A DNA stretch of 36,646 nt from a virus. Both the position numbers and the translations under genes were made by a program. Below are positions 31,278 to 36,646 of the stretch, piece after piece. Under the pieces are notes generated by a model that was not told the origin of the DNA, searched no databases, and saw nothing but the letters and a program-made list of their open reading frames with translations. How positions within the stretch are numbered: position 1 is the stretch's first letter; every line of letters starts with the position of its first letter. The DNA lies in the IMG/VR virus record IMGVR_UViG_3300034101_000340, positions 1 to 36,646 of that record; one strand, given 5' to 3'.

Positions 31278-32234
31278 ATGACCAAATCAGCTTGCACAGA
31301 CCAAGAATTTATAGGTCTGTGGAATAAACACGGATCAGTAACAAAAGTTTCAAAAATATTAGGTATTCATGAAAGAAACACACACGCTAGGCGCAGGAAT
31401 ATCGAAAAAAAGTATGGGATTGTCCTTGCTGGAGTAGCTAAAAATAGCCCTGATTTCAAGGTAACGTATCCAGAGAATAATGTCAGGATCAACGTAGAGC
31501 TAGGTAACGGAATTATTGTTGTCGGGTCTGACTGCCACTACTGGCCCGGAGTTGTTAGCACAGCACATCGTGCATTTGTAAAGATCATCAAAGATTTAAA
31601 GCCTCGGATGGTCGTTATGAATGGGGATGTATTTGACGGGGCTAGTATCTCCCGGCATCCGGTATCAGGATGGGGCGTTATCCCTACTGTAAAACAGGAG
31701 CTAGAAGCCTGTCAGGAGCGTCTAGAGGAGGTCGAGAAGGCCGCAAAAGGCGCTGCCCTGCACTGGACATGGGGTAACCACGATATGCGCTTTAACGCCC
31801 GTTTAGCGGCTCAGGTAGGGGATACTTGGCGAGGCGTAGAAGGCATGAACCTGACTGACCATTTCCCTAGATGGAAGTTCTCCACAAGCATTATGGTCAA
31901 CGAGTCTACGATGATTAAGCACCGTTATCATAATGGCATCCATGCTGTTTACAATAACACAATGAAGGCCGGTATTAGTATCGTTACCGGACACCTACAT
32001 TCCCTGAAAGTAACCCCGTGGAGCGATTACCGAGGCGATAGATATGGGGTAGATACAGGCTCACTGGCTGATGTGCATGGTGACCAGTTTGAGTATTCTG
32101 AGGACAATCCTAAGAATCATAGATCAGGCTTTGCGGTTCTAACCTTTGTGGACGGAAAACTGCTACCGCCTGAGCTATGTCAGGTCTGGGATGATGACCA
32201 TGTGGTGTTTAGGGGTCAGTTGATTAAGGTGTAA
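31278..32234 (+). CDS. Metallophosphoesterase with N-terminal HTH
   Basis: The protein is 318 residues from ATG 31278 (AGAGGGGATC ahead). Residues 5-40 (EFIGLWNKHGSVTKVSKILG) look like a small HTH. The rest is a calcineurin-like phosphoesterase with all metal motifs: SDCH at 84-87, NGDVFDG at 115-121, GNHD at 166-169 and GHLH at 238-241. Such HTH-MPE proteins are common in phages and may act on DNA ends or cyclic nucleotides; the substrate is not known. It is the last rightward gene and its stop overlaps the convergent DUF3310 gene by 11 bp. Confidence 0.88.
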   Translation: MTKSACTDQEFIGLWNKHGSVTKVSKILGIHERNTHARRRNIEKKYGIVLAGVAKNSPDFKVTYPENNVRINVELGNGIIVVGSDCHYWPGVVSTAHRAFVKIIKDLKPRMVVMNGDVFDGASISRHPVSGWGVIPTVKQELEACQERLEEVEKAAKGAALHWTWGNHDMRFNARLAAQVGDTWRGVEGMNLTDHFPRWKFSTSIMVNESTMIKHRYHNGIHAVYNNTMKAGISIVTGHLHSLKVTPWSDYRGDRYGVDTGSLADVHGDQFEYSEDNPKNHRSGFAVLTFVDGKLLPPELCQVWDDDHVVFRGQLIKV

Positions 32235-32433
32235 TCCGACTAATAGCCCGGTTAATGTACCACTGGGCTTTTAGCAGGTCTTTTAGCTTATCTTCTTTCT
32301 TCCCTGCCCTAGAGATGTATTTAACGGCATTGCCTAGATGAAAGTCTAGGTTCTTGGCTTCAATGAAGTCAATGGTTTCAATACCACCATCGGTATAGTG
32401 TGCTGGATGATTAACTTGATCCATCTTTAACAA
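32224..32433 (-). CDS. DUF3310 protein
   Basis: The product is 69 residues from TTG 32433, which has GGAGT close by; ATG 32424 (66 residues) is the alternative. VNHPAHYTDGGIETIDFIEA followed by FHLGNAVKYISRAGKKEDKL and KDLLKAQWYINRAI is a full DUF3310 (SaV-like) match. Members occur in very many phages and are sometimes called nucleotide kinase, without good evidence. It is the last gene of the leftward operon, next to a MazG-like gene, so nucleotide metabolism is plausible. Confidence 0.88.
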   Translation of the reverse strand: MLKMDQVNHPAHYTDGGIETIDFIEAKNLDFHLGNAVKYISRAGKKEDKLKDLLKAQWYINRAISRITP

Positions 32434-32722
32434 ATACTCCGTTCTTATTAAGGTAGCCTTTACGGTCTTTAATCTCGTTATAGGCCGATTCTAGGCAACG
32501 GGTTAGATCTACGTCCTCTAAAGCCCCCACAACAATAAGACACACAAGCACATCACCAAGGCCATCAACAATAGCAGGTCTATCCCGTTTAATAATAGCA
32601 TCGGCTAATTCTCCCATTTCTGAGACTGCTTTGAGTAGCTGAGTCTTGGAATCCGAGTTCTCAATGATTCCTCGTGCTTCTGCCCATCGGATAACGTCTA
32701 GCTCCGTAATTGCCCAAGTCAT
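32411..32722 (-). CDS. MazG-like nucleotide pyrophosphohydrolase
   Basis: The protein is 103 residues from ATG 32722 (ATGA overlap). SEMGELADAI carries the ExxE motif (Glu35, Glu38), and DGLGDVLVCLI carries the second acidic motif (Asp53, Asp57), as in all-alpha NTP pyrophosphohydrolases. Helical throughout, one MazG unit long. Phage MazG proteins hydrolyse (d)NTPs or ppGpp-like alarmones; this may keep the starving host productive. Metal ligands are all present. Confidence 0.88.
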   Translation of the reverse strand: MTWAITELDVIRWAEARGIIENSDSKTQLLKAVSEMGELADAIIKRDRPAIVDGLGDVLVCLIVVGALEDVDLTRCLESAYNEIKDRKGYLNKNGVFVKDGSS

Positions 32723-32913
32723 TGAGACAGTTCCTCAATCTCAAGGATCGGCAGACCGAATACTTTATGAACACGGATAATAATATCGGCTGATACCTTG
32801 GATTTACCGTTACGAATACGGCTCATCACTGGAGTCGATACGTTTAGTTTTGCAGCCAGTTGACGGTCATTCTTAATCTCAAACCGGCTTTGTAATTCGT
32901 CGAGCAGTTTCAT
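32719..32913 (-). CDS. Cro/CI-type HTH regulator
   Basis: The product is 64 residues from ATG 32913 with AGGAG upstream. LDELQSRFEIKNDRQLAAKL, NVSTPVMSRIRNGKSKVSAD and IIIRVHKVFGLPI are a complete HTH_3 DNA-binding domain with the recognition helix near residues 28-36. No dimerisation or cleavage domain, so it is Cro-sized. It is the obvious candidate for binding the palindrome at 34994-35007. It lies downstream of the structured non-coding region on the same strand, which would be its 5' leader. Confidence 0.88.
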   Translation of the reverse strand: MKLLDELQSRFEIKNDRQLAAKLNVSTPVMSRIRNGKSKVSADIIIRVHKVFGLPILEIEELSQ

Positions 32914-33297
32914 AAATCTCCTGTAGTTAAGATTGTTGGTGACAGCTATTCCCTATATCCGTGTGCGATATGCCACTGCCGATTGTTCACTGCCACCAAC
33001 ACGACTGAGGACTCCCCTCGGTTTCTATATTCCGATGAGCAAGTTAATGCTCGAATCCTCATGCGTCTTGGTGCAGGGTCACTGAACTTGGAGACTCGAA
33101 GGAGACTCAGCCCCTGCTGCCGGAGTTACCCGCCACAACCGGCTAGGCGTGTTAGGTGGGCTACTCGCTACACCGCCTGATGAACACCACGTTTATCGGA
33201 TTGGCAGCATCCGCTTTCGCCCGTAAAGGGTGGAGATACTCACAAGATTTAGGATGAACCGACCAAAGTCCCCGCCAGCTTGCTTTCTCTCCGTAGA
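32914..33297 (-). ncRNA. Structured non-coding region, strand uncertain
   Basis: These 384 bases carry no credible gene on either strand. They are full of paired arms: TGTTGGTGACAG 32934-32945 with 32990-33001 (11 of 12 pairs), ATATC/GATAT inside it, TGAGGA 33006-33011 / TCCTCA 33056-33061 enclosing GAGCA/TGCTC, GCAGGG 33073-33078 / CCCTGC 33112-33117, GCCGG/CCGGC at 33119-33143, AGGCGTGT/ACACCGCCT at 33145-33178, CGGAT/ATCCG at 33197-33213 and CCC/GGG at 33220-33230. This is the density expected of a large folded RNA. It sits inside the leftward operon, so I list the minus strand. The only long inverted pairs are the same on both strands, so the plus strand is possible. Confidence 0.5.
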
Positions 33298-33543
33298 TCA
33301 AAATGGAATAGGATCGTTAGGATCGTCTTCCGGCATTGGTTTAGCTTTTGGCTTTGCAGAATCTTTAGGCTTAACCGACAGGCTAAAGAACTTCTTTCCG
33401 TCCTTGCTGGACTCTTTAACCCATGCTGAGAGCCAGTAATCTATGCCATCAACATTGAGTGAACCAGAGTATTCAGGATGGTTATCCGCTGTCTTATTCT
33501 GGTTCCTAGAGAGGATCCCGCGATTAGTATTGTCAAAGCTCAT
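33298..33543 (-). CDS. Small SSB-like protein with SSB-type C-terminal tip
   Basis: The product is 81 residues from ATG 33543. MSFDNTNRGILSRNQNKT, EYSGSLNVDGIDYWLSAW and KDGKKFFSLSVKP form a small beta-rich domain, then a linker KPKDSAKPKAKP and the tail EDDPNDPIPF. Bacterial SSB proteins end in an acidic tip with final Asp-Ile-Pro-Phe or similar that recruits partner proteins, and this tail matches in acidity and in the final Pro-Phe. It follows the ERF gene, so a single-strand annealing pair is likely. OB fold not proven from sequence. Confidence 0.7.
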   Translation of the reverse strand: MSFDNTNRGILSRNQNKTADNHPEYSGSLNVDGIDYWLSAWVKESSKDGKKFFSLSVKPKDSAKPKAKPMPEDDPNDPIPF

Positions 33544-33547
33544 ATTT

Positions 33548-34171
33548 TTACCTTGTAGTGTATTTTTTAATTGCTGCCCGTTGTTTACTATCTAACAGAC
33601 TCCATAGGGCTGTTTTAGAATCTGCGTCTAACTCACATTGTTCAATATACTGAACAGCGCCTTCTACATCGTCCATAGCCAGCAGGGAGATAACCTGTAC
33701 CCCGATACTACGGATAGATTCCTGCTCCTCAGCGGTCATGCTATCGAATACGTCTTTAGTAATAGGCTTTGCTGACTTAGGAGACTCTGAACCTGTAGTA
33801 GCGTCCAAGGCATCATGCTCGACAACCTCTAGCGCACTTACGTACAAGTACCTCCGAGAGTAAGTCTGAACAGCGCCCATATTTTGTATAGGGTGACAGC
33901 CTTTCAGGTGAGCATCAGCCATCGGGCTAGTAAATGTAATGCTCCCACCGTTATCAGTATCGATAATGCGTAGAGTAGCCAACTCTTTATCAAAGCTGAT
34001 GACTGAGCAGAGTCCGAGTTCACTAAATATCCCGTTAATGGTTGGAAGAAAGTCTCCAAGCTCAAAATACTGGTAACCGGCAAACTTATTGTGTCCTGAC
34101 TTCTTTATTGGCGCTGCTTGTAACATCATCCTAGCTTTTTGCAGCTTTGCGTAAACTTGATATTCAGACAT
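33548..34171 (-). CDS. erf: ERF-family single-strand annealing protein
   Basis: The protein is 207 residues from ATG 34171 (AAGGGATAAATA ahead). VYAKLQKARMMLQAAPIKKS, GHNKFAGYQYFELGDFLPTI and MGAVQTYSRRYLYVSALEVV are the signature of the ERF superfamily of P22 type recombination proteins. The C-terminal part (TAEEQESIRSIGVQVISLLA) is helical. ERF anneals homologous single strands and helps to circularise phage DNA in recA cells. A circularly permuted, headful-packaged genome would need it. The SSB-like gene follows 4 bp downstream. Confidence 0.9.
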   Translation of the reverse strand: MSEYQVYAKLQKARMMLQAAPIKKSGHNKFAGYQYFELGDFLPTINGIFSELGLCSVISFDKELATLRIIDTDNGGSITFTSPMADAHLKGCHPIQNMGAVQTYSRRYLYVSALEVVEHDALDATTGSESPKSAKPITKDVFDSMTAEEQESIRSIGVQVISLLAMDDVEGAVQYIEQCELDADSKTALWSLLDSKQRAAIKKYTTR

Positions 34172-35728: not shown

Positions 35729-35837
35729 ACACGCTTGGAGGCGTGTTTTGAGTAAGCCTTAGATGGGACTCTGCTGGTACTCACCAGTCCTCCAACACCG
35801 TTATGCGGTGAGAGTCTCACCTAGGGCTTTTTTTATT
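35729..35837 (+). ncRNA. Structured RNA 2: pseudoknotted three-way junction with U-tract, leader of replication operon
   Basis: Pairings read directly: H1 ACACGC 35729-35734 / GCGTGT 35741-35746 with loop TTGGAG. P2 is 35754-35762 / 35821-35829 (9 bp, one G-U). After a 1x1 A-C mismatch (35763/35820), P2b is 35764-35771 / 35812-35819 (8 bp, one G-U). P3 is CTGGT 35774-35778 / ACCAG 35783-35787, and P4 is CACCG 35796-35800 / CGGTG 35806-35810. The H1 loop TTGGAG is complementary to CTCCAA 35790-35795 between P3 and P4. A U-tract at 35828-35834 follows P2. The ribosome site and ATG 35848 of the next gene lie right behind it. The architecture matches structured RNA 1 with different sequence; a regulated terminator is the likely role. 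Confidence 0.78.
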
Positions 35838-35847
35838 GGAAAAAGCT

Positions 35848-36090
35848 ATGGTGAAATTTCAAGGCAGCCAAGGATGTGAGTTTTATATCAACCTTGATGG
35901 ATGCATTGTCATTAAGCAAGACAGTTATGAGTTTGGCAAAGAAGTTAGAGTTGTATTGACTCCAGCAATGGCTTGGGAGTTGCAAGCGTTAATTAACTCA
36001 CACCATGAGGAAATGACGTTTGCATGGGCTGATGGAATGGTGCAGTTTGCATGGGCTGATGGAATGGTGCAGGAGCCTCCAAATGCCTAA
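35848..36090 (+). CDS. Small hypothetical protein with duplicated 9-residue end
   Basis: The product is 80 residues from ATG 35848; a TTG at 35836 lies in the U-tract of the RNA and is less likely. GCEFYINLDGCIVIKQDSYE and VRVVLTPAMAWELQALINSH look like a compact beta-alpha fold. The end carries a perfect duplication FAWADGMVQ x2, encoded by a 27-bp tandem repeat. It is the first gene behind structured RNA 2 and overlaps the replication gene by eight bases. No family recognised. Confidence 0.75.
   Translation: MVKFQGSQGCEFYINLDGCIVIKQDSYEFGKEVRVVLTPAMAWELQALINSHHEEMTFAWADGMVQFAWADGMVQEPPNA
36019..36072 (+). repeat. 27-bp perfect tandem duplication
   Basis: Positions 36019-36045 and 36046-36072 are identical. 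The unit is a multiple of three, so the frame is kept and the protein gains FAWADGMVQ once more. The repeat ends just before the GGAG ribosome site of the gene at 36083. Confidence 0.95.
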
Positions 36091-36646
36091 ACGTCCATCC
36101 TTCCAGTTCTATCCTTCCGATTGGCTGAGGGATACGGCACTAAGGTCATGCTCAACGGGAGCTAGAGGTCTATGGATAGACATGATCTGTTTCATGCACG
36201 AAGGTAATCCTTACGGACACTTAAAGGTTGGGGATAAGGTTATCCATCCAGTAAACCTTGCCCGTATGGTTGGGGAAACCTTAGAGGTTGTCGAAGGTTG
36301 GCTTAAAGAGCTACATCATGCAGGAGTGTATGACATTGCTGACGATGGGGCTATTTGTAGCCGTAGGATGATCCGGGATGAAAACCTTAGACAAATCAGA
36401 GCGTTAGGTGGAAAACTTGGTGGGAATCCTGCACTAATGAAGGTTGATAAGGTTAACCTTAAGGTTATCCAAGAGGTTAAGCAAAATCCAACCCCTTCAT
36501 CTTCATCTTCATCTTCATCTTTAAAAGAACAATATAACGAGCATTTTTTGAAATTCTGGAATGTCTATCCAAACAAGAAAGCTAAGGAAGCTGGATGGAA
36601 AGCATTTAAGAAATTAAAAGCTGATGAAACATTTGTTTCTATGTTG
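36083..36646 (+). CDS. DUF1376-type replication protein, N-terminal part (continues at 1)
   Basis: The gene starts at ATG 36083 with AGGAG at 36071-36075, runs off the window, and ends at 251 after the join. KRPSFQFYPSDWLRD at 3-17 and TGARGLWIDMICFMHEGNPYG are characteristic of DUF1376 proteins, which pair a winged-helix-like N-domain with a DnaT/O-like C-domain. A QNPTPSSSSSSSSS linker, built from a hexamer repeat, separates the two. Full length is 239 residues. The protein should bind the phage origin and recruit the helicase; an origin has not been identified within the gene. Confidence 0.85.
   Translation, partial: MPKRPSFQFYPSDWLRDTALRSCSTGARGLWIDMICFMHEGNPYGHLKVGDKVIHPVNLARMVGETLEVVEGWLKELHHAGVYDIADDGAICSRRMIRDENLRQIRALGGKLGGNPALMKVDKVNLKVIQEVKQNPTPSSSSSSSSLKEQYNEHFLKFWNVYPNKKAKEAGWKAFKKLKADETFVSML
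36496..36519 (+). repeat. TTCATC hexamer microsatellite in replication gene
   Basis: Four tandem TTCATC units code for the Ser-rich linker of the DUF1376-type protein. Unit length is a multiple of three, so slippage would change linker length and not the frame. Confidence 0.9.
36552..36646. repeat. Contig-end direct repeat, right copy
   Basis: Identical to 1-95; see the left copy. One of the two should be removed when the genome is drawn as a circle. Confidence 0.9.

Follow-up and report, generated by a model that had tools for sequence, protein, structure and literature searches.

The window, by which we mean the whole stretch of 36,646 nucleotides of viral DNA analysed here, encodes an 81-residue protein ending in a peptide that resembles the C-terminal tip of the bacterial single-stranded DNA-binding protein (SSB), and this tip is under strong constraint across a large family. 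The family keeps this tip on a core with no sequence relation to SSB, and so the phage probably employs it to engage the DNA-handling machinery of the host. The best explanation, towards which we lean with modest confidence, is that the protein is a minimal phage hub on single-stranded DNA (ssDNA) displaying the host SSB tip. We hold more tentatively, at a little under evens, the complete reading in which a bacterial SSB tip is carried by a small non-OB four-strand domain unrelated to SSB, acts as a substitute hub on phage ssDNA and gave the family its 'SSB' name by having been copied.

A sequence-only reading of this DNA had described an 81-residue protein ending EDDPNDPIPF beside an ERF annealing gene, and it was correct on both points. 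The open reading frame (ORF) occupies 33298-33543 on the minus strand and its product ends ...PEDDPNDPIPF. The ERF gene lies 4 nt away, and its product matches Pfam ERF (PF04404, E 1.1e-12) and phrog_155, 'Erf-like ssDNA annealing protein' (PHROGs, E 1.8e-25). The ATG of the SSB-like gene is preceded, at a distance of 7 nt, by a ribosome-binding-like AAGG (33551-33554, minus strand), noted by eye. The features are as follows.

33298..33543, minus strand: SSB-like gene, 81 aa, ATG start (ORF list and match to phrog_7364 and phrog_18154)
33361..33543, minus strand: core domain, residues 1-61, four predicted strands (E7-13, E25-31, E34-44, E51-59)
33331..33360, minus strand: linker SAKPKAKPMP, residues 62-71, basic, variable, low model confidence
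33301..33330, minus strand: acidic SSB-Ct-like tip EDDPNDPIPF, residues 72-81, net charge -4
33548..34171, minus strand: ERF-family single-strand annealing protein, upstream of the SSB-like gene, its stop 4 nt before the start of that gene
32719-32913, minus strand, as the SSB-like gene: CI-type HTH gene
32411-32722, minus strand, as the SSB-like gene: MazG-like protein gene
32224-32433, minus strand, as the SSB-like gene: DUF3310 gene

We then asked how well the tip is conserved. Relatives were gathered from viral contigs, bacterial genomes and 14 phage records, and members were recognised with an iterated core-only profile. This yielded 201 family ORFs, 200 of them with a stop and 151 distinct in core plus tail. 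Lack of conservation of the tail in homologues had been set beforehand as what would refute the sequence-only reading, but the tail is conserved: 146 of the 151 distinct proteins end in Pro-Phe (PF), as do 41 of the 44 cluster representatives obtained at 80% core identity, counts that shared ancestry inflates. Two further proteins carry one to three residues after PF and three end in another hydrophobic residue. Among the representatives, the terminal Phe is present in 43 of 44 and the preceding Pro in 41, and each of the 44 has between 3 and 5 acidic residues within its last ten. Asp predominates at positions -4 to -6 and Ile or Val before Pro-Phe, the tip thus reading D-D-D-(I/V)-P-F over the 44 clusters; DDDIPF is the SSB-Ct hexapeptide (PMC5872125; PMC5928155). 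Chance is ruled out as the source of this tail, for only 4 of 1300 other distinct ORFs of at least 120 codons in the same loci end in PF, against 41 of 44 clusters. Only two of these four have at least 3 acidic residues in the last 10, and both are canonical phage SSBs (phrog_44) whose loci came from a search in which one of the six patterns was taken from the tail. PF ends 73 of the 76 proteins that were found with core patterns and no others, and likewise all 14 INPHARED relatives, which had been selected from tblastn matches to the core. The SSB-Ct-like tip proposed for the 81-residue protein is therefore a genuine motif.

The segment that follows the core is 11 to 69 residues long. In the 41 representatives ending in PF, mean pairwise identity is 52% for the core and 61% for the last six residues, a value that includes the PF shared through selection of the set (positions -6 to -3 alone give 42%). 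The linker is the least similar part, at 33% identity and with an average difference of 16 residues between linkers.

The position of the gene suggests a partner that the sequence-only reading had left out, namely the phage's own annealase. The tip might mainly dock this protein, ERF being loaded on ssDNA covered by the SSB-like protein as the HK620 SSB loads Sak4. Indeed, most close relatives have ERF as their immediate upstream neighbour, on the same strand. Stimulation of the phage annealase Sak4 by the HK620 SSB is described as depending, both in vivo and in vitro, on the final six residues of that SSB, NDYPPF (PMC5928155), and Sak or Sak4 and Ssb of S. aureus phages are described as functioning in cognate pairs (PMC5499656). 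However, the tip does not follow the presence of ERF. Of the 102 distinct proteins flanked on each side by 2 kb or more, PF ends 49 of the 52 with ERF within 3.2 kb and 49 of the 50 without, part of the latter set coming from the search whose six patterns included a tail-derived one. For this reason, cleaner support for independence from ERF comes from 11 named phage records, chosen by tblastn on the core, which have no ERF or RecT match and all keep the tip. The tip is also kept in three RecT-like contigs with no ERF match, of which G006 passes the RecT cut-off while G008 and G009 fall below it. Over whole records, ERF was matched in 15 of 29, and a RecT-like match was found in 3 of 20, one of them above the family cut-off. 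A tail dedicated to ERF is thus weakened, and the phages free of ERF and RecT argue against the annealase as its sole role; we regard annealase docking as the main function of the tip as rather unlikely. Because the tip persists with ERF, with a RecT-like protein or with neither, host partners are favoured over a dedicated ERF contact, and both host proteins and the phage annealase may be partners of the same tip.

The likeness of the tip to that of host SSB extends further in some relatives. FDDDIPF or a near copy ends family proteins in enterobacterial, Vibrio and Aeromonas phages, and the Vibrio phage VP2 protein ends NEPPMDFDDDIPF, identical to the final 13 residues of E. coli K-12 SSB. 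The NEPPMDFDDDIPF tail is also found on canonical phage SSBs (phrog_44) at L193:2551-3081 and L203:2494-3078. The tip of the window protein, NDPIPF, is less acidic than that of E. coli. When 14 relatives were compared with E. coli SSB by BLASTP, 12 matched at E <= 0.01, all within SSB residues 108-178; since the search ran with no composition correction or low-complexity masking, these E-values are too good for Gln/Pro-rich linkers, and what the comparison shows is the location of the match. None of the 14 matched the OB domain of E. coli SSB (L114 was without any hit, and the single hit of L124 had E 1.9). A sequence relation to bacterial SSB beyond the tail is accordingly not borne out, with no PF00436 match and no OB-domain match in the 14 relatives.

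We also considered host-by-host matching of the tips and set it aside, as the comparison was limited to four bacterial genomes and the likeness was loose in three of them (host SSB tips DMDDDIPF, DMDDDIPF and FDDDIPF against prophage tips QDDSVPF, LGDAPF and GEDDIPF). The only alike pair among the four is that of Paramagnetospirillum, where host SSB and prophage tips both read DDEIPF. No SSB was found in a fifth bacterial genome holding a family copy.

An acidic tail could also act in cis. In T7 gp2.5, the acidic tail occupies the DNA site electrostatically, and the tail of the present family might only regulate DNA binding in this way, with no specific partner. The charges would suit such a role: the tip is acidic throughout the family (net -2 to -5 over the last ten residues) and the core is basic, with a pI of 8.0 in the window protein, a median of 9.1 over the 44 clusters and values above 8 in 42 of them. 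Electrostatics alone, however, would neither keep Pro-Phe at the end of the protein in 41 of 44 clusters nor reproduce 13 residues of a host SSB, and we consider regulation in cis as the only function of the tail improbable.

The family already bears an SSB name in databases. The window protein matches phrog_7364 (E 3.3e-16, residues 2-64) and phrog_18154 (E 3e-11, residues 3-48) in PHROGs, both labelled 'single strand DNA binding protein', and the VP2, Mangalitsa and Kokobel2 proteins match them as well. Pfam gave no match for the window protein at E <= 1, and NCBIfam gave nothing meaningful. The T7 gp2.5/DUF2815-type Pfam family was not matched at E <= 1 by the window protein or by the 16 members of alignment A1. 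In a tblastn search of 50,697 phage records with the window protein, 144 gave a match at E <= 1, of which 128 stayed at E <= 0.01; among the matches listed, the alignments mostly cover about residues 2-57, i.e. the core without the tip. The sole match in a PDB sequence search, a mitochondrial ribosomal protein at E 0.087, was taken as chance. One member, at 39.3% identity, is PP952070.1 (hit H65), 'Staphylococcus phage Pel53', whose identity and query coverage are shared by many E. coli phage entries among the matches listed; its Staphylococcus host label looks doubtful.

Where the name came from can be guessed from the sequences. As the matches of the relatives to E. coli SSB fall in linker and tip alone, the 'single strand DNA binding protein' label of the family may derive from the tip. 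The VP2 record annotates its family protein as similar to V. cholerae SSB, and two canonical phrog_44 SSBs match phrog_18154 and phrog_7364 through their C-terminal parts; therefore, the name may have begun from the tip. Such an origin does not show that the name is wrong. The literature searched contained no biochemistry of this family.

Is the core an SSB domain? From a 16-row alignment, AlphaFold2 predicts four strands, with pLDDT 90-92 over residues 21-60 and 53-56 in the tail. Foldseek against the PDB returned no match at E <= 0.001, the SSB chains 3tqy and 7ym1 appearing only at E about 2.7 and MoSub1 at E about 1. In a viral library it gave 13 matches at E <= 0.001, among them the single stranded DNA-binding protein of Vibrio phage JSF9, and a protein named DUF736 at E 0.005. 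VIA-align gave no row at Z >= 5 for the core model; Pur-alpha (3nm7, Z 4.1), the T5 PC4 homologue (4bg7, Z 3.6) and human PC4 (Z 2.6-2.8) were level with unrelated rows, and rows such as DDB1, SH2 and phage coat proteins were taken to reflect a common beta arrangement. The OB fold suggested as a check in the sequence-only reading thus finds no support in structure prediction, and on this model the core is not demonstrably an OB fold or an SSB domain. A weak profile resemblance links the family to DUF736 (PF05284), which 10 of the 16 members of alignment A1 match at E <= 1 (best 6.3e-5) and the window protein does not; the hhalign probability is 14% with alignment A1 and 64% with the 44-cluster core alignment. 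Unlike the window family, the three DUF736 proteins examined end without an acidic PF tip.

The core occurs twice in VP2, in the viral-contig loci L143 and L144 and in Vibrio phage K227. Members of the VP2 type from Vibrio phages, with two tandem cores and the same kind of tip, lie at L117:3995-4471, L120:3992-4471, L143:3001-3477 and L144:3001-3516. A model of the two-domain VP2 protein had a mean pLDDT of 49 and was left unused.

The protein might also be chiefly a soluble display of the tip, competing with host SSB for ExoI, RecJ, RecQ, PriA and others; this would divert the host or protect the ends of phage DNA. In all 12 relatives that match E. coli SSB (E <= 0.01; 14 compared), the similarity goes no further than linker and tip, and the core has neither a Pfam SSB match nor a confident structural match in the PDB, as expected of such a decoy. 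It would account poorly, however, for the basic core and for the placement of the gene with ERF, polymerase, primase and DnaB genes, and the tandem duplication of the core in VP2-type proteins is more in keeping with a DNA-binding module than with a peptide carrier. We give a decoy of this kind little credence.

We therefore return to the hub displaying the host tip. Besides ERF, the neighbours of family members include a DnaB helicase gene (loci L074 and L078), a prim-pol primase gene (locus L117), DNA polymerase and adenylosuccinate synthetase; ERF, DnaB, the prim-pol primase and DNA polymerase handle ssDNA. A canonical SSB (PF00436) was found in none of 30 records including the window, the search control being positive in 10 of 14 genomes. 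It is from these neighbours, the basic core and the absence of another SSB in the phage that we infer ssDNA binding, and the docking of host partners from a tip that is identical with SSB-Ct and independent of ERF; the partners and the advantage to the phage are likewise inferred. We propose that the small basic beta-sheet core would coat the ssDNA arising from phage replication and recombination, and that the variable linker would tie it to the copy of the bacterial SSB tip. Taking the place of host SSB, the tip would then bring host proteins with an SSB-tip pocket to phage ssDNA, and it may dock the phage annealase as well. Candidate host partners of an SSB tip are RecO, PriA, RecQ, RecJ, ExoI, primase and the chi subunit of Pol III.

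Two other observations were made in the window. Downstream of the SSB-like gene, between it and the HTH gene, about 385 nt without an apparent gene (32914-33297, minus strand) are conserved and modular, and include the following.

33073-33148, minus strand: core RNA module, 76-82 nt, two hairpins with covariation

The model of this module rests on 18 sequences, one from the window and 17 from loci. In it 99.4% of cells are paired, against 25-54% in slid controls, and 6 of the 20 pairs are changed on both sides. The 27 cells with two-sided changes compare with a mean of 9.7 after shuffling, and none of 500 shuffles reached as high. The model matches 38 of 72 sources at E <= 1, once each (the window and 37 loci), and the matches in loci all lie on the strand of the SSB-like gene. 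Rfam gave no family at gathering threshold for this stretch and only chance-level hits below it. The module is a candidate new structured RNA of phages. Elsewhere, a small ORF at 35836-36090 (plus strand) ends in a duplicated stretch, FAWADGMVQFAWADGMVQ, where the overlapping long ORF 36020-36646 starts; a short tandem duplication of recent date seems likely.

Genome-maintenance proteins of bacteria have the SSB tip as their main docking peptide. If our reading is true, its presence on an apparently unrelated 60-residue domain would offer a compact tool for finding the host repair and replication proteins that phages depend on or disable. It would also allow mimicry by short motifs to be studied in E. 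coli phages that are at hand. A caution also follows, namely that phage 'SSB' annotations can rest on a few C-terminal residues. Phage SSBs are moreover described as triggers of defence systems, the protein studied there being gp2.5-like (PMC13381803).

How does the family compare with known systems? The window protein belongs with phrog_7364 and phrog_18154, both of which it matches and whose label is, as far as found, non-experimental. Phage SSBs of the T7 gp2.5 type, including Enc34 ORF6, have an acidic C-terminal tail as the window protein does, but are described with a larger OB-type domain, unlike the window family (PMC5686142). Bacterial SSB, as in E. coli, likewise carries an acidic tip ending (I/V)PF on a flexible linker, whereas its PF00436 OB domain has no match in, or detectable relation to, the window family. 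Host-like tips on phage SSBs are already in print, the precedent being the SSB of phage HK620. Like the window protein, it adjoins an annealase gene and has an acidic tail ending PF as in E. coli SSB, and it is reported to need its last six residues to stimulate the annealase (PMC5928155). The likeness is one of described features: the HK620 protein, with a mass of 21.3 kDa and purified as a bona fide SSB, partners Sak4, whereas the window protein has 81 residues and ERF as its neighbour. What we add to this precedent is a family-wide test of the tip, its independence of ERF and a core that is not demonstrably an SSB domain.
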